From contig PBSM01000278.1 of assembly GCA_002726245.1 (NCBI GenBank), positions 1 to 64,000 of the forward strand: a stretch of 64,000 nucleotides of DNA, given 5' to 3'. Shown here piece by piece: positions 33,506 to 41,013 of this stretch. The first letter of the stretch is position 1, and each line of letters starts with the position of its first letter. Both the position numbers and the translations under genes were made by a program. Origin of the DNA: Planctomycetaceae bacterium (GTDB taxonomy: Bacteria; Planctomycetota; Planctomycetia; Pirellulales; Pirellulaceae). The notes beneath the pieces are model-generated. The model did no database searches and was not told where the DNA came from. It saw only the letters and a list, made by a program, of their open reading frames with translations.

Positions 33506-34522
33506 ATGGTGAATGGCTTTTCAAAGGCGAAATGGATTTCCTGCGCTCTGCTCAGCACGGCCCTTGCTGGCTGCGCTGGAGGCTCACCGTTCGGTCCGGC
33601 ACCGAACGACGCGTTCTCGACGGCCAACGGCTTCGATGACTCAAGCCGTGAACCCTATTCTCAGCTCGCGCAAGCCTTCCCCCAGCAGAAAGTCGTGACG
33701 CCCAATTCGTCGGTCGCTCCGCCCTCGAATCGAGTGCAGGCTTCCGGCAACCAATTCCTGACGTCGATGCATAAGATGGCGGGAAGCTTTACGGATGCTA
33801 TCACGCCAAACACTCGAGTCATTCCGGCCTCTGACCCGACAAGTCTGTCGGGTCCGCACCACGCCGCTGGTGCGGACCTGAACTACCACGCCGCTCGCGT
33901 CTACGAATCCCAGGGGAAGACAAAATCCGCTGCCGGGCTGTACGAGAAGTCGTTGCAGATGGCACCGGATCAGGCATCCACGCTAGTCGCTTACGCGCGG
34001 CTTCTGGACCGCGAGGGGAACTTCGGCAAGGCGGAATCGCTCTATCATCGAGCAATCGCAGTGGAACCAGCGAACACGGTTGCCTTGAACGATTTGGGAA
34101 TGATGTACGCGCGCCAGGGAAGGTTGTCCGACGCTGCGGCGAATGTGAGTCGTGCAATTCAACTGCAGCCGATGAACCAACGCTACCGCAATAACATGGC
34201 GATCGTGCTCATCGATGCTGAACACTTCGAAGAAGCGTTCAACAATCTTGCGGCGGTCCATGGCGAAGCGAACGCCCATTACAATTTGGCTTTCCTGCTG
34301 TTGCAGCGAAAGATGCATGCGGAAGCCGCGTATCACCTGAACCAGGCACTGGCTCTGAATCCACAGCTTGAACCAGCTCGCCAACTTGCCCATTCGGCTC
34401 CGCCAACTCCGCTGTCCACGCAACAGTATCTGCCCGTGTCGGCACCACCAGGGGAGTCTGGGAACCATCCAGCTCAAACCGGTATGCCGGTACTACAAAC
34501 ACGCCCGCTACCACCCCTCTAA
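33506..34522 (+). CDS. TPR lipoprotein (TadD-like)
   Basis: 338 residues. The lipobox LSTALAGC gives an acylated Cys near residue 22. After a disordered segment there are about four TPRs (AARVYESQGKTKSAAGLYEK, ARLLDREGNFGKAESLYHRA, LNDLGMMYARQGRLSDAAAN), then a Pro-rich tail. TadD proteins are TPR lipoproteins needed for Tad pili and sit in Tad loci, so this may be the surviving distal gene of that locus. A perfect AAGGAGGTGA lies very close to ATG 33506; the in-frame GTG at 33509 has better spacing. Confidence 0.8.
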   Translation: MVNGFSKAKWISCALLSTALAGCAGGSPFGPAPNDAFSTANGFDDSSREPYSQLAQAFPQQKVVTPNSSVAPPSNRVQASGNQFLTSMHKMAGSFTDAITPNTRVIPASDPTSLSGPHHAAGADLNYHAARVYESQGKTKSAAGLYEKSLQMAPDQASTLVAYARLLDREGNFGKAESLYHRAIAVEPANTVALNDLGMMYARQGRLSDAAANVSRAIQLQPMNQRYRNNMAIVLIDAEHFEEAFNNLAAVHGEANAHYNLAFLLLQRKMHAEAAYHLNQALALNPQLEPARQLAHSAPPTPLSTQQYLPVSAPPGESGNHPAQTGMPVLQTRPLPPL

Positions 34523-35102
34523 CGGCCCTAATGCGGTCGAAAGTGGGTAGTTCGGCGTTGGCTTCATTTGAAAAGGCATGGATCGCTAGCGAGGCATCTT
34601 ATTGTGACCACAAAGCCATACAATCGCGCGTGTTACGTCGTTGGCGGTAATTCCAACAGAGTTCAGCAACAGGTCTGACGATCGATTTCTCTGTTGCCGC
34701 ATTCGAGATTCCGAATTAGTCTTTAATTGGAGAGGAGGAAGCGGACACACGAAGGCAGGGATAGCCGAGCCGCATTGATACTTCCCCACAGATGGATCTC
34801 CCCTCTGCCTGTCCTCTTTCCCTCCGACGAGCTCTTTTCCAAGTTATAGCTCGGTGGCCGCGGCATTGATTCCCGTGGGGAGTCTCGTTCACTTCGCTTT
34901 GTGAACCAAGCCGTGCAGCGAAGTCTCTCTTTTATTTGCGACTGTTCGGCTGCACTGATTCGCAGCGACTCTTAAGGCCACTGGGTAATCGTTGACCAAG
35001 GATCGGTCCAGGCACAACACGCGACAGGATTCGGAAACCAAGCATTCAACAGTTGGTTGGCGCAGGCGGTGGCCAGCGCTAGCTGGCTGAGGAGGAACAA
35101 AG
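34523..35102. other. Gene-free leader region upstream of prkA
   Basis: 580 bases without a believable gene. It should hold the operon promoter. Purine-rich and pyrimidine-rich stretches (about 34733-34767 and 34798-34829) are partly complementary. The hairpin at 34891-34924 is listed separately. A ribosome binding site (GAGGAGGAACAAAG) directly precedes prkA at 35103. Confidence 0.5.
34891..34937 (+). terminator. Hairpin plus U-rich tail in the prkA leader
   Basis: ACTTCGCT (34891-34898) pairs perfectly with AGCGAAGT (34917-34924) and is followed by CTCTCTTTTATTT. This looks like a moderate intrinsic terminator 165 bases before prkA. It could end an upstream short RNA or act as an attenuator; the sequence does not decide. 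Confidence 0.4.
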
Positions 35103-37148
35103 ATGAGCGGCCAAAACATCATTTCGCTGATTGGTGATCGACAAGACATCGAACAGTTTCGCAAGAAACATTGGGACGGTACGTTCGAGGAGTATTTGGA
35201 CCTCGTTCGAGCCAAACCCAATACACCGCGGAACGCCTTCCAACGGGTCTACGATATGATCATGTCGTACGGCATCGAAACGTACGAACCGAGCCGCGGT
35301 GAGAAACGCTCTCACTATGTCTTCTTTGACGATCCTATCGACGGCGGTCGCGATGCGGTGTTTGGTTTGGACGAAGCGCTCGAACGCTTCGTCAACGCGA
35401 TGAAGAGTGCGGCCCGCGGTTACGGCATCGAGAAACGCGTTCTGTTGTTGCACGGGCCCGTTGGCAGCAGTAAGAGCACGATCGCCCGCATGCTGAAGAA
35501 AGGCCTAGAGCGGTATAGCGCGACGGACGAAGGTGCTCTCTATACGCTTGGGTGGCACGAGGAAGGTACCGAGACGCAGTGGTGCCCTATGAACGAAGAA
35601 CCGTTGCATATGATCCCGGATCGATTCCGAGACGAAGTCGCTTCGCAGCTCAATTCCGGTGGCTCAGGCGATGATTATCAGGTCAAGATCGTTGGTGAAA
35701 TGTGTCCATTCTGCCGCTTTATGTACGGCGAACGCCTCAAGGACTGCGACGGCGACTGGACCCGCGTCATTGCCGACGTGCGCGTGAAACGCGTGATCTT
35801 AAGCGAGCAAGATCGTGTCGGAATCGGTACGTTCCAGCCAAAGGACGAGAAGAATCAGGACAGCACCGAGCTAACGGGCGACATCAACTATCGTAAGATC
35901 GCTGAACTCGGCAGCGATAGTGATCCGCGAGCGTTCAACTTCGATGGCGAGTTCAACATCGCGAATCGAGGCATCATTGAATTCGTGGAAGTCCTCAAAC
36001 TCGATGTGGCGTTCTTGTACGATCTGCTTGGCGCGAGTCAAGAGCACAAGGTCAAGCCAAAGAAGTTCGCTCAGACCGACATCGACGAGGTCATTCTGGG
36101 CCACACGAACGAACCTGAGTATCGCCGCTTGCAGAACAATGAGTTCATGGAAGCGTTGCGCGATCGCACGGTAAAGATCGACGTCCCGTATGTCACCAAG
36201 CTGGAGCACGAGATCAAAATCTATGACAAGGACTATAACGAAGGCAAAGTCAAAGGCAAGCAAATCGCGCCCCACACCATCGAGATGGCGGCAATGTGGG
36301 CGGTTCTTACGCGTTTGGAAGAGCCTAACAACGCTAGTCTGACGCTGCTGCAAAAGCTGAAGCTCTATAACGGGAAGACGCTTCCGGGCTTTACCGAGGA
36401 GAACGTCAAGGAACTCCGCGACGAGGCCACGACCGAAGGCATGCATGGCATCTCGCCTCGTTATGTCCAGGACAAGATCAGCAACGCGCTGGTGGCTCAT
36501 CCAGAAGCGAAGTCGATTAACCCATTCATGGTCTTGAACGAACTTGAATCTGGCCTCAAACACCATTCGCTCGTCACCAACGACGACACGCGAGCTCGGT
36601 ATCGCGATCTACTGGGAGTGGTCAAAGAGGAGTACGAGAACATCGTTAAGAACGAAGTTCAACGCGCTATCGCCGCCGATGAAGATGCCCTCAAACGGCT
36701 GTGCGGTAACTACATCGACAATGTGAAGGCCTACACGCAACGCGAGAAGGTCAAGAACAAGTTCACCGGTCAATACGAAGAACCAGATGACCGGCTGATG
36801 CGGTCGATCGAAGAGAAAATCGACATTCCGGAGAGCCGGAAAGACGACTTCCGCCGAGAGATCATGAATTACATCGGAGCGTTGTCGATCGATGGCAAGC
36901 CCTTCGATTTCAAGTCGAACGAGCGCCTCTACAAGGCGCTGCAGTTGAAGCTCTTTGAGGACCAGAAGGACTCGATCAAGCTGACGAGCCTTGTGTCCAA
37001 CGTCGTCGATCAAGACACGCAACAGAAGATCGATGTCGTCAAAGGACGACTGATCCGCGATTACGGCTACGACGACGAAAGTGCTACCGACGTATTGAAC
37101 TTCGTTGCCAGCATCTTCGCGCGGGGTGATGTGCGGGATGATGGGTAG
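35103..37148 (+). CDS. prkA: PrkA AAA+ serine protein kinase
   Basis: 681 residues, full length. Walker A is [18 protein letters not shown] (GPVGSSKS at 118-125). The conserved C-terminal kinase-like domain follows. A zinc-like cluster (MNEEPLHM, then [14 protein letters not shown]) is also typical. PrkA (YeaG in E. coli) works with YeaH and SpoVR in starvation and stress responses, and both partner genes follow here. The frame is intact over 2 kb. Confidence 0.96.
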
Positions 37149-37149
37149 A

Positions 37150-37572
37150 GGTCATTAGTCATTAGGGAAGAAGGTGGGGACAACGGTATGGCAGGTGGAT
37201 TTGACGATCTGCGCGTTTATCATCTGTCGGAAGACATTGCCGATACGACTTGGGATCTGGTGCTGGGTTGGAACAACTTGGCGAAGGATACGGTTGGGAA
37301 ACAGATCATTCGCTCCGCCGATAGCATCGGAGCCAACATCGCGGAGGGATACGGACGCGGCACCTACAACGACAACAAACGTTTCGTTCGCATCTCGCGC
37401 GGCTCCCTATACGAAAGTAGACACTGGCTCCACCGAGCCTTCCGCCGCAAACTCTTAACCCAAGACCAAATCGACCACCTCAAACCACTCATCGATAACC
37501 TCGGCTCTCAACTAAACGCTTACCTCAAATCCATTGGTCCTCAGTCTTCCCAATGACCAATGACCAATGACC
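37150..37572. mobile_element. Cassette: IVS-type gene bounded by inverted heptamer repeats
   Basis: The left end (37150-37170) reads GGTCATT AGTCATT AGGGAAG. The right end (37546-37572), reverse complemented, reads GGTCATT three times and then GGGAAG. The 423-base segment lies between prkA and yeaH and holds a single gene unrelated to the operon. The right repeat contains that gene's stop codon and ends at the base before the likely yeaH ATG. The layout suggests an inserted cassette; no target-site duplication was established. Confidence 0.6.
37188..37556 (+). CDS. Four-helix-bundle protein (23S rRNA intervening-sequence/S23 family)
   Basis: 122 residues. The family signature is clear: FDDLRVYHLSEDIADTTWDL at the start and IIRSADSIGANIAEGYGRG in the middle, then helices 3 and 4. 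The family was first seen encoded inside intervening sequences of 23S rRNA genes and also includes the accessory Avd of diversity-generating retroelements; biochemical function is unclear, probably nucleic acid binding. Here it is neither in rRNA nor near a reverse transcriptase, but inside a stress operon, on the same strand, within inverted repeats. Its last codons lie in the right repeat. Confidence 0.9.
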   Translation: MAGGFDDLRVYHLSEDIADTTWDLVLGWNNLAKDTVGKQIIRSADSIGANIAEGYGRGTYNDNKRFVRISRGSLYESRHWLHRAFRRKLLTQDQIDHLKPLIDNLGSQLNAYLKSIGPQSSQ

Positions 37573-38682
37573 ATGTCTCTCAAAATCGAGCGCGACAAGA
37601 ATCGTTTCCGCCAGATTGTCCGGGGCAAGGTGCGCGAAAACCTTCGCCGCTATATCAATCATGGTGAGATGATCGGACGCAAAGGCCGCGACCTCGTCAG
37701 TATTCCGTTGCCACAACTCGACATCCCGCACTTCCGTTATGGACAAAACGGAGGAGGCGGCGTCGGGCAAGGCGAAGGGCAGGAAGGGCAGCCGATTGCG
37801 AAAGGTGATGACGAAGGCGAAGGCACTGGACAAGCTGGCTCGGACGCCGGCCAGCACATCGTCGAAGTCGATGTCACGTTGGAGGAACTGGCGGAGATCA
37901 TGGGCGATGAGCTTGAATTGCCCCGCATCGAGCCGAAAGGGAACTCGACGATCCAGCAAGAGAAGGCTCGCTACCGCAGCATTCGACGCGTTGGGCCGGA
38001 GTCCTTGCGGCACTTCAAAAGAACTTATGTCGAGGCGTTGAAGCGGCAAGTTATCGAAGGCGACTACGATCGGCAGAAACCTCGTGTTGTCCCGATCAAA
38101 GACGACCAGCGTTACCGCTCCTGGGAGACGACTCCCGAGCCAGAGGCGAATGCTGTCATCATTTACATGATGGACGTGTCGGGGTCGATGACAGACGACC
38201 AGAAGGCGATCGTACGAACGGAAGCCTTCTGGATCGACACCTGGCTCCGCAGCCAATACGACGGCGTCGAGTGTCGCTACATCATTCACGATGCGGCCGC
38301 GAAGGAAGTGGACGAGCACACGTTCTATCACACTCGCGAGAGCGGCGGCACACGAATCAGTTCGGCGTATCGCGTTTGCTCAGATCTGATGGACCGGTCG
38401 TTTTCGCCCGACGAGTGGAACGTCTACCTCTTCCAGTTCTCCGATGGCGACAACTGGGGGGAAGATAACCGTCAGGCGATGGAGTTGCTGAATGAGAAAC
38501 TCGTCACGCGAAGCAACTTGTTTTGTTACGGGCAAGTTGAAAGCCCCTACGGCAGCGGCGAGTACATCCGTTCTCTCGAACAGACCTTCGGCCGCGACCA
38601 CGAGAAGGTCGTCCTGTCCGAGATCGAAGACAAGGACGCCATTTTCGAATCGATAAAGCATTTCCTGGGGAAAGGGAGGTAA
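37573..38682 (+). CDS. yeaH: YeaH, DUF444 protein with VWA-like domain
   Basis: 369 residues from ATG 37573; another in-frame ATG at 37567 lies in the repeat. The N-terminal basic segment ([20 protein letters not shown]) is typical, followed by a Gly-rich linker (about 60-90) and a VWA-like domain with [13 protein letters not shown] and later [11 protein letters not shown]. YeaH is the partner of PrkA/YeaG. No ribosome binding site is visible because the upstream DNA is the heptamer repeat; translation may depend on readthrough coupling. Confidence 0.93.
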
Positions 38683-38755
38683 GTTTTCAGTGTTCAGTTG
38701 CCAGTGTTCAGCAAGATTCCTGAATACTGAAAACTGAACACTGGCAACTGAAAAC
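38683..38755. repeat. Inverted pair of heptamer arrays between yeaH and spoVR
   Basis: The left array (38683-38710) is GTTTTCA, GTGTTCA, GTTGCCA, GTGTTCA. The right array (38721-38755), reverse complemented, is GTTTTCA, GTTGCCA, GTGTTCA, GTTTTCA, GTATTCA. Ten bases separate them. The left array starts directly after the yeaH stop (38680-38682), and the right one ends five bases before the spoVR ATG. It would form a long hairpin in RNA. Confidence 0.75.
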
Positions 38756-38760
38756 TAACA

Positions 38761-40305
38761 ATGCCTGCTATCCACCGTTTTCAACCGCTTCCGCAAGAGC
38801 TGGTCGAAGTACAGCAGAAGATGGAAGCTCACGCCAGCGATTACGGTCTGGACTTCTTTCCTACCATCTTCGAGATGGTGGACGCCGAACAGTTGAATGC
38901 TGTTGCCGCTTACGGTGGGTTTCCGACTCGTTACCCGCATTGGCGATTCGGGATGGAGTATGAGCAGCTCTCGAAGGGTTACTCGTATGGGCTGCAGAAG
39001 ATCTACGAGTTGGTGATCAACAATGATCCGTGCTACGCGTATCTGCTGGCCAGCAACGGCATCACGGATCAAAAGCTCGTCATGGCCCACGTCTACGGCC
39101 ACTGCGACTTCTTCAAGAATAACCATTGGTTCAGCAAGACGAACCGGCACATGATCGACGAGATGGCGAACCACGGCAATCGGATTCGTCGTTATATGGA
39201 TCGATTTGGCGTCGAGGAGGTTGAGAACTTCATTGATACGTGCCTCAGCGTCGAGGATCTGATTGATATTCACATGCCGTTCGTGAAGCGAACTGACGAC
39301 GACACTCGGTACGAGTTTCGTGACAACACGAACGATGAAGAGGACGCCGGCTCGCTCAAGTTCGAAGCCAAAGGCTACATGGATTCTTTCGTGAATCCGC
39401 CCGAGAAACTGGCGGCCGAGGTCGAACGCCGCCGACAGGCGTTGCTTGAGAAAGGGGCAAGCTTCCCCGTCGAGGCTGTTAAGGATGTCATGTTGTTTGT
39501 ATTGGAGCACGCGCCACTCAAGCCGTGGCAACTGGACGTGCTCTCGATCATCCGCGACGAAGCTTACTACTTCGCGCCGCAGGCCCAGACCAAGATCATG
39601 AACGAAGGCTGGGCAACATATTGGCACTCGACGATCATGACGCGGCATGGAATCGAGCCGCCGGATCTCATCTGCTATGCCGACCACTGTGCCGGCACGC
39701 TCGCGAGCTCACCAACGCGGCTAAACCCGTACAAGCTCGGCCTTGAACTGTTGCGCCACATCGAAGAGCGTTGGAATAAGGGCCAGTTCGGCGACGAGTG
39801 GGAAAGCTGTGACAACATGCGGGCCAAACACGAGTGGGATACAGGTGCGATGCAGGGTCGAGACAAGATCTTCGAGGTGCGGCGTATCCACAATGACCTC
39901 ACCTTCGTGGACGAATTCCTTACGTTGGAGTTCTGCCGCGAGAATAAGATGTTCTCCTTCGGCTACAACGAGCACTCGGGCTACTACGAGATCGAGAGCC
40001 GGCAGTTTGACGAGATTAAGCAACGTCTGCTGTTCAATCTGACGAATGTGGGCAGACCGTTCATTTACGTTCGTGACGGCAACTACAAGAACCGTGGCGA
40101 ACTGTTCCTGGAACACCGATACAACGGAGTAGAGCTGAAGCTGGAATATGCACAGGACACGCTCGCGAACCTTTACAAGCTCTGGGGGCGTCCTGTTCAT
40201 ATCGAAACTGTCTTGGATGACCACCTGACCACCTTGTCCTTCGACGGCACTGAACACGCATCCTCGAAGTCAGAAGAACTGGTTGCCATGGGAGAGGAGT
40301 CATGA
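38761..40305 (+). CDS. spoVR: SpoVR family protein
   Basis: 514 residues, normal for the family. Characteristic segments are present: GLDFFPTIFEMVDAEQLNAV near the start, MAHVYGHCDFFKNNHWFS and IMNEGWATYWHS in the middle. SpoVR (YcgB in E. coli) belongs with PrkA and YeaH in a stress-related trio; its mechanism is unknown. The ATG follows the repeat with no Shine-Dalgarno site. The stop overlaps the next gene by four bases. Confidence 0.96.
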   Translation: MPAIHRFQPLPQELVEVQQKMEAHASDYGLDFFPTIFEMVDAEQLNAVAAYGGFPTRYPHWRFGMEYEQLSKGYSYGLQKIYELVINNDPCYAYLLASNGITDQKLVMAHVYGHCDFFKNNHWFSKTNRHMIDEMANHGNRIRRYMDRFGVEEVENFIDTCLSVEDLIDIHMPFVKRTDDDTRYEFRDNTNDEEDAGSLKFEAKGYMDSFVNPPEKLAAEVERRRQALLEKGASFPVEAVKDVMLFVLEHAPLKPWQLDVLSIIRDEAYYFAPQAQTKIMNEGWATYWHSTIMTRHGIEPPDLICYADHCAGTLASSPTRLNPYKLGLELLRHIEERWNKGQFGDEWESCDNMRAKHEWDTGAMQGRDKIFEVRRIHNDLTFVDEFLTLEFCRENKMFSFGYNEHSGYYEIESRQFDEIKQRLLFNLTNVGRPFIYVRDGNYKNRGELFLEHRYNGVELKLEYAQDTLANLYKLWGRPVHIETVLDDHLTTLSFDGTEHASSKSEELVAMGEES

Positions 40306-40787
40306 CACTAAAAGCACGAATCCATACGGAACTGAACCGACTCGCCTCGCTGGCTGGCACCAACAGCGTGCCACAACTGCTGCGGATCGATACGGGCGAT
40401 GGTCATGTAGAGTCCGAACTTACGACGATCGACCAACTCGCTTGTGCATTCAATCGCTTTGCGTACAAGACCGATAAGCTCGCCAACTCGACGATCGACG
40501 AGTTGAAGGACGTCGCGAATTCGTTGAGCAGCCAGCTCGGCTACTTGCTCGAATCGATCAGCCCAGTCGAGATCGACGATGAAGCTTGCGTCGTACAGAT
40601 GCGATCGAACCCGCCTGAAAAAGACGACGACGGCACCCGCTATTACGAACTCGTTGTGGCTCGTGGCGAGCTAACTCTGTTGCGTTACTGCAAACCACCC
40701 GGCCAACCTAGAGCGATTGTGGCTGCGAATGTCACGCGAGAAGTCTTCGAACGTCTGGGCGAAGATTTTGTCGATACAGTTGCGTGA
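40302..40787 (+). CDS. Unknown protein, fourth gene of the prkA operon
   Basis: 161 residues. The start lies within the spoVR stop (ATGA), with GAGAGGAG just upstream, so it is clearly part of the operon. No signal peptide or membrane helix. The N-terminal half is helical (TIDQLACAFNRFAYKTDKLA, LKDVANSLSSQLGYLLESI); the C-terminal half is beta-rich (RYYELVVARGELTLLRYCKP). Not recognised. Its coupling to spoVR suggests it works with the PrkA-YeaH-SpoVR group. Confidence 0.8.
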   Translation: MTLKARIHTELNRLASLAGTNSVPQLLRIDTGDGHVESELTTIDQLACAFNRFAYKTDKLANSTIDELKDVANSLSSQLGYLLESISPVEIDDEACVVQMRSNPPEKDDDGTRYYELVVARGELTLLRYCKPPGQPRAIVAANVTREVFERLGEDFVDTVA

Positions 40788-40827
40788 TTGCGTGAAGATC
40801 CACGTCTTCTGCAGGCCAATATCTTCT

Positions 40828-40899
40828 GTAGGTCCACATCTCCGAGGTGGACATCCTTCCAATCCGTTGGCCGTCCGCCTCGGAGATGCGGACCTACAC
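40828..40899. repeat. Intergenic hairpin repeat, family C
   Basis: The left arm GTAGGTCCACATCTCCGAGG (start 40828) and right arm ending CTCGGAGATGCGGACCTAC (end 40897) pair over about 25 bases around a 20-base loop. Just upstream, TCTTCTGYAGGYC occurs twice in tandem. It lies after the prkA operon and may act as its terminator or processing site. Confidence 0.65.
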
Positions 40900-40902
40900 G
40901 CA

Positions 40903-40941
40903 AGAAAAAGCGAAGACCCGGCTCCCAGAGTGGAAGCCGGG
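40903..40941 (-). terminator. Rho-independent terminator on the minus strand
   Basis: On the minus strand CCCGGCT (40941-40935) pairs with AGCCGGG (40923-40917), followed by TCTTCGCTTTTTCTTG. It ends the short minus-strand transcript that begins above 41070. Confidence 0.65.
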
Positions 40942-41013
40942 CCTCGTTAACTCGCGTTTGATCGGGTGATCTCAGCGAGCCGGTGGTCTGCCTTTCGCAG
41001 TCCGCCGACCTTG

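Follow-up and report, generated by a model that had tools for sequence, protein, structure and literature searches.

What is a small gene of the 23S rRNA intervening-sequence (IVS) type doing between two protein-coding genes, prkA and yeaH, and why do short tandem repeats enclose it? The proteins of its family, S23/IVP, have solved structures and no function. Ribosomal IVSs have reportedly been called selfish since the 1990s and, to our knowledge, have no known relatives outside rRNA; thousands of intergenic heptamer arrays have been described in several papers without a source. Here we analyze a locus in a 64,000-nucleotide stretch of DNA from a Planctomycetaceae bacterium (the window) at which such a gene and such arrays lie together. 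We think it probable that positions 37150–37572 represent one instance of a widespread cassette, in which a promoterless S23/IVP gene occupies the loop of a hairpin with arms built of short tandem arrays, usually of 7- or 8-bp units.

The 423-bp segment 37150–37572 fills the prkA–yeaH junction and consists of a left array, a 122-aa ORF, and an inverse right array (GGTCATTAGTCATTAGGGAAG, the ORF, and the inverse array CTTCCCAATGACCAATGACCAATGACC); prkA and yeaH are intact members of the prkA–yeaH–spoVR group (Table 1). The left array, GGTCATTAGTCATT at 37150–37163 followed by AGGGAAG, comes after the TAG stop codon of prkA (37146–37148). The right array (37550–37573) has a period of 7 and 3.4 copies, and its arm reads GGTCATTGGTCATTGGTCATTGGGAAGACTG on the other strand, so that the homology of the arms extends about six bases (GGGAAG) past the heptamers. 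A reading made beforehand from the sequence alone (the sequence-only reading) had counted three GGTCATT units on the left and almost four on the right; the left arm has two clean units. Direct reading shows that the IVP gene's stop codon (TGA at 37554–37556) lies within the right array and that this array adjoins the yeaH start codon (ATG at 37567 or 37573). The two flanks reach a complementarity score of 15, against a maximum of 12 among 412 random window pairs from IVP-bearing loci, and the arms pair in an RNA fold (z −2.4). An Rfam search found no known RNA family within 34000–41000.

Table 1. Features of the prkA–yeaH–spoVR region, in window coordinates
Feature	Position	Strand	Basis
prkA, upstream host gene, intact	35103..37148	+	PF08298 and PF06798
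Left arm, GGTCATT AGTCATT AGGGAAG, 2 nt past the prkA stop codon	37150..37170	+	Direct reading
Four-helix-bundle gene, 23S_rRNA_IVP / S23 family, 122 aa	37188..37556	+	PF05635, TIGR02436
Right arm, on the minus strand GGTCATT x3 then GGGAAGACTG	37542..37573	−	Direct reading; pairs with left arm in RNA fold
yeaH / DUF444, downstream host gene, intact	37567..38682	+	PF04285, NF003711
Array-only hairpin, AGTTTTC/AGTGTTC unit arms, no gene; fills the yeaH–spoVR junction	38683..38760	.	RNA fold z −6.7

Profile matches and direct reading bear out the proposal that an IVP-family gene lies here within inverted GGTCATT arrays. The 122-aa protein matches PF05635 at 93.2 bits (cut-off 33.8) and TIGR02436 at 90.5 bits (cut-off 24), and its structure model (pLDDT 93.6) has the four-helix-bundle fold of the Xcc0516/BT_0352 type. 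The nearest solved folds are Xcc0516 (2gsc; TM 0.90)—a homopentamer (PMC4990558)—and, more distantly, Avd, the accessory protein in the ribonucleoprotein of diversity-generating retroelements (DGRs) (TM ~0.76). In an alignment of 23 IVP sequences, 14 columns are invariant, with S46 and ANIAEG at their centre. Among 18 computable close IVP pairs, 17 have dN/dS values of 0.02–0.17; codon comparison indicates that the protein is under purifying selection. PF05635 is the sole domain found: no catalytic domain is recognisable, a Y1 (HUH) transposase domain is absent by profile search, and no recombinase gene accompanies the IVP gene. We rejected a phage gene or known defence gene as its identity, there being no PHROG, PADLOC, or phage-record match. 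In one Planctomycetota relative with GGTCATT arms (L079, 1983–2330), an in-frame TGA stands at the position of the window protein's Trp, marking a pseudogene or an assembly error.

The arrays themselves are not confined to the cassette. Single GGTCATT heptamers are only mildly enriched in the window (13 vs. 7.3 expected), but the 7.6-Mb genome contains 68 copies of the doublet GTCATTRGTCATT and none of its reversed control, which makes the heptamer array more than chance. Most of the other doublet places are junctions that lack an IVP gene, and inverted pairs 30–70 bp apart are frequent among them; of 33 places inspected, 18 have an inverted partner within 80 bp, 20 lie between co-directional genes, and 4 fall inside called ORFs. 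The heptamer was accordingly rejected as an IVP-specific marker, some 30 GTCATT places in the genome having no IVP gene. Also rejected was the notion that heptamer hairpins are very common there: in 765 kb, arms with 7-bp periodicity were seen in only 2 of 88 strong hairpins, most of which were REP-like, and arrays of period 7 are not markedly more frequent than those of other periods. Abundant REP-like hairpin families, such as GTTTAACCGCAAGCCGGAGGCGTGCG and GTAGCCATCACGCTCCGCGTGATG, are unrelated to the heptamers (G000, 765 kb sampled: L206–L245 plus the window). The unit of the hairpin between yeaH and spoVR is the arm unit of another IVP gene, L003, in the same genome. Two consecutive junctions of the prkA–yeaH–spoVR operon hold array elements of different units.

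To place this arrangement in a wider frame, 80 IVP loci from many phyla were collected by scanning genome contigs with the window protein, and more were added from relatives and plasmids. The arm score of each gene was the complementarity of the 150 bp upstream vs. the 150 bp downstream, with arms called clear at a score of at least 14. In the first batch, 74 of 103 IVP genes reached this threshold, compared with 6/178 other genes of the same loci and 0/412 random windows (Mann–Whitney P = 2 × 10⁻³⁵), and flanks of different IVP genes paired at random did so in 12 of 300 cases. The six positive control genes include three Y1/RAYT transposases with REP hairpins and one second IVP gene, so the score picks out just such an arrangement. 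A second batch from 20 genomes, scored without separate controls, gave 47 of 79, bringing the count for both batches to 121/182 across many phyla. About a third of IVP genes have no clear inverted arms at this threshold, and the arrays of L197 are direct. In the comparison that the sequence-only reading proposed, inverted arrays were found around IVP genes at a far higher rate than around the other genes in these loci; the heptamers are not equally common around any gene. Chance, or generic gene-end hairpins (terminators, slippage repeats) near a fast-spreading small gene, could draw on the fact that single GGTCATT is not rare and that some array flanks are of low complexity; contradicted by the neighbor-gene, random-window, and mismatched-flank controls alike, it is an explanation that we discount almost entirely.

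The arms share a format rather than a sequence. Tandem periods in 206 IVP flanks were 7 (77 flanks), 8 (48), 10 (13), 6 (6), and 11 (5), with period 7 seen in 8 of 245 random windows, and IVP copies in a single genome have different array units (G053 is an example). The median number of units is 4.4 for arrays of period 7, 4.6 for period 8, and 2.8 for period 10; a length fixed at five units, which would match a pentamer, was rejected, and a constant arm of ~30–37 nt fits better. The idea of arrays as universal bumpers with stops in all frames does not hold generally, three-frame stops being present in 26–29% of arrays. Mean frames with stops, for arrays vs. shuffled units, were 1.56 vs. 1.42 upstream and 1.27 vs. 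0.87 downstream, suggesting at most a tendency. In a divergent IVP subfamily (L250, L252, and also L251 and L265), GTCATT-type arms take the opposite orientation, with AATGAC upstream. IVP genes also occur in clusters in which each gene has its own unit: four in 7.4 kb (G013:C12:219207-226589) and three in 3.4 kb (G036:C5:248045-251454).

Gene and arms appear to travel together. We compared pairs of IVP genes without any shared neighbor gene, as judged by tblastn of the flanking ORFs. At 80% or higher IVP identity, 13 of 14 such pairs have both arrays in common; at lower identity the counts are 12/26 (70–80%), 52/208 (60–70%), 52/987 (50–60%), 20/978 (45–50%), and 3/398 (<45%), many of the closest pairs coming from one genus and the pair counts not being independent events. 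In Mucilaginibacter, IVP genes 78–91% identical carry the same octamer arms at four different places. Similar IVP genes at unrelated places keep their arrays, which argues that gene and arrays relocate together.

Empty sites complete this picture. The prkA–yeaH junctions of all 27 relatives compared (one per genus) are 3–577 nt long and contain no IVP motif. The empty sites for which the sequence-only reading had proposed to look were found, and the contrary case, in which close relatives all carry the gene here with unrelated flanks, was not. Three of these junctions, in other genera (L057, L071, and L074), hold array-like repeats of other units (CCCCAGC, GTTCCCT, and GGAGATG). A cassette lies between cas10 and cmr3 in Picosynechococcus PCC 7003, where the junction of PCC 7002 is 12 bp; a Nostoc plasmid junction holds a cassette in CCNP1411 and C052 and measures 50–52 bp in four plasmids. 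At that junction, an array-only element sharing the left boundary of the CCNP1411/C052 cassette is present in Nostoc ATCC 53789, and one built of another unit in plasmid p057_H of Nostoc C057. The IVP genes that Anabaena 90 and Pseudanabaena galeata have in the same cas6–cas4 junction are 47% identical and differ in their arrays, which suggests independent insertions. Cassettes were seen inside CRISPR-Cas operons of cyanobacterial plasmids (L195, L197, and L196), twice in type I-D cas6–cas4 and once in type III-B cas10–cmr3. The search for target duplications recognised none, occupied and empty junctions having diverged: none is visible in two occupied/empty pairs or in an 81-bp miniature family described below. 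With the same gene and ends at unrelated places and with empty sites, the comparisons agree with what is generally asked of a mobile element, and the cassette is, on this sequence evidence, very probably real and relocating as a unit.

Could the gene instead be a passenger, the heptamer hairpins being a separate repeat class, generated by slippage or in REP-like fashion, in whose loops IVP genes insert or shelter with nothing broken? Array-only hairpins do far outnumber IVP cassettes in several genomes, the unit does vary among the IVP copies of one genome, and the array-only element and cassette at one Nostoc junction do have a common left boundary. Entry into local hairpins, however, predicts something other than the retention of the same arrays by similar IVP genes at unrelated places, with a smooth fall as identity declines. 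The arms also fit their gene closely on both sides, whereas randomly paired flanks of different IVP genes rarely complement one another (the 12/300 above). We consider the passenger account unlikely.

The cassettes occupy a characteristic position. The median gap is 2 nt on either side, from the upstream stop codon to the beginning of the left array and from the end of the right array to the next start codon, starts being called mechanically. Both neighbors are co-directional with the IVP gene in 116 of 160 cases; in loci long enough for comparison within the locus, this holds for 46/53 IVP genes vs. 41/76 control genes (P = 6 × 10⁻⁵). The proposal of a minimal unit of about 420 bases, mobile or passively moved, that enters stop/start junctions without breaking genes is supported by these data; movement driven by the protein is what we infer. 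In several genera an IVP gene with long upstream arrays of 8-bp units is kept between two efflux genes, one cusB-like and one cusA-like (L274, L282, L284, L290, and L325). This copy is possibly domesticated, and since L274/L290 are fixed across genera, not all IVP copies are mobile now.

Such placement might serve a host protein that binds RNA and regulates operons by way of array hairpins at their junctions, with movement rare or past. Consistent with a domesticated regulator are the strong purifying selection on the protein, the position of arrays at stop/start junctions next to start codons, the fixed cusB–cusA copy, and the proposal that heptamer arrays upstream of start codons in Beggiatoaceae are translational control sites (PMC4679880). 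Against this, different copies have unrelated neighbor genes and units of their own, and selfish elements likewise keep their genes under selection. Presence is also patchy—40 of 60 relatives, with 0 to 11 copies—and the relatives' junctions are empty. Host control as the main role is, in our judgment, improbable.

Gene-less copies provide the next line of evidence, through the match between their units and those of IVP genes. In genomes that have an IVP gene with the GTCATT unit, doublets of this unit number 68, 61, and 43, compared with 0–5 in most others. An IVP gene with this unit is present in 4/7 genomes having at least 10 doublets vs. 0/53 (P = 7 × 10⁻⁵; P = 1 × 10⁻³ when restricted to genomes with a fetched IVP gene), and one with the AGTKTTC unit in 4/8 genomes having at least 2 doublets vs. 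0/52 (P = 1.4 × 10⁻⁴; restricted, P = 5 × 10⁻⁴); these P values are indicative, doublet thresholds having been set after the counts were seen and not all IVP genes having been fetched. Doublets of the octamer RGTTCATT likewise number 2–93 in Mucilaginibacter genomes and 0–1 in unrelated genomes. In genome G050, a homogeneous family of 81-bp miniatures combines constant 31-nt arms with drifted loops of ~19 nt (L336–L355), a pattern to be expected if function resides in the arms. The arms of this family are of AGTTTTC type, and the single IVP gene found in G050 has another unit. G050 and G048 both have many arrays and no retrieved IVP gene with the array unit.

A further reading assigns the spread of the arms to another enzyme, a REP-associated tyrosine transposase or a host reverse transcriptase, and makes the IVP protein irrelevant to movement. 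The protein has no catalytic domain, other hairpin repeats of REP type are abundant in the genome, and six reverse-transcriptase matches were found, all on contigs other than that of the cassette. Yet RAYT genes in the studied loci have their own REP hairpins, which lack 7-bp periodicity, whereas 7/8-bp arrays go with IVP genes, and matching units co-occur with matching IVP cassettes. We give this reading little credence. By analogy with REPs and their RAYT transposases, we infer that the cassette is mobile and that the gene-less hairpins are its non-autonomous derivatives.

How might a mobile hairpin cassette without a recognisable recombinase spread? The cassette would be transcribed together with its host operon, and the IVP protein, as a ring-forming relative of Avd, would bind the hairpin formed by its own array, as RNA or single-stranded DNA, and deliver it for copying or insertion to an enzyme of the host or a borrowed one. 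With such a partner enzyme the cassette would spread in cis and gene-less copies in trans. As happens with rRNA IVSs, the transcript may be trimmed by RNase III at its stem; an IVS of this kind would be a copy of the same element that had landed in a loop of the rRNA. We see an even chance that the IVP protein is the factor driving the spread; RNA as the moving form is a more doubtful, tentative suggestion. Somewhat short of an even chance, finally, is the broadest possibility: a new, phylum-crossing class of minimal mobile elements without a recognisable recombinase, in which a noncatalytic ring protein of Avd/S23 fold is paired with a cognate hairpin of inverted 7/8-bp arrays, gene-less miniatures form swarms, and ribosomal IVSs and many published, unexplained heptamer repeats are parts.

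If the IVP protein does bind and multiply the hairpin of its own unit, bacteria hold a mobile element of ~420 bp in operon junctions that leaves genes unbroken; if not, a conserved pairing of protein and hairpin at operon junctions still wants explanation. The comparison with known systems joins S23/IVP proteins, rRNA intervening sequences, and intergenic heptamer arrays. Dispersed heptamer arrays include the STRR of Calothrix. Others are GGGAATC in Xanthomonas, with 70–75 convergent inverted array pairs per genome, and GGGGAYT in Nostoc (PMC4692102), as well as TAACTGA in Beggiatoaceae, cyanobacteria, and Bacteroidetes, often at start codons (PMC4679880). These resemble the cassette arrays in being intergenic 7-bp tandem arrays, but the two reports (PMC4692102, PMC4679880) describe no associated mobile gene. 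REP/REPIN–RAYT systems likewise combine a gene flanked by inverted repeats with dispersed gene-less copies between genes, and the same arm score picks out RAYT genes; the cassette differs in having no Y1 transposase domain and in arms built of tandem 7/8-bp units that vary from copy to copy. The 81-bp family of G050 is like a MITE in being short, inverted-repeat, noncoding, and multicopy, but has no identified transposase partner or target duplication.

Two further systems share the protein fold or family. The modeled four-helix bundle is similar to Avd (TM as above), and the DGR of BPP-1 requires a DNA hairpin near its target (PMC3240598); however, identity to Avd is ~10%, and no reverse transcriptase or TR/VR lies beside the IVP gene, whose neighbors are prkA, yeaH, and spoVR. 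The closest likeness in family is to the 23S rRNA IVS. That of Coxiella burnetii contains an S23p ORF with tandem heptamers (GACAGAT) of varying copy number directly upstream, and its RNase III excision from the transcript has been shown (PMC4990558); a CPR survey reports IVP ORFs in both 16S and 23S inserts (PMC11270868). IVS and cassette have the same protein family, nearly the same length (428 nt in Coxiella, 423 bp at prkA–yeaH), and an ORF within terminal inverted repeats that close a stem. Unlike the IVS, the cassette lies in a protein-operon junction rather than in a 23S rRNA helix, its stem is built of inverted heptamer arrays, array-only copies exist, and many copies with different units occur per genome. 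Our search of open-access literature yielded no report of IVP genes associated with inverted arrays outside rRNA. The parts—IVSs with an S23p ORF and heptamers, and dispersed heptamers—are known separately, and their link outside rRNA is apparently new; we regard the cassette as a variant of the IVS elements, with a fair chance of being a class of its own.
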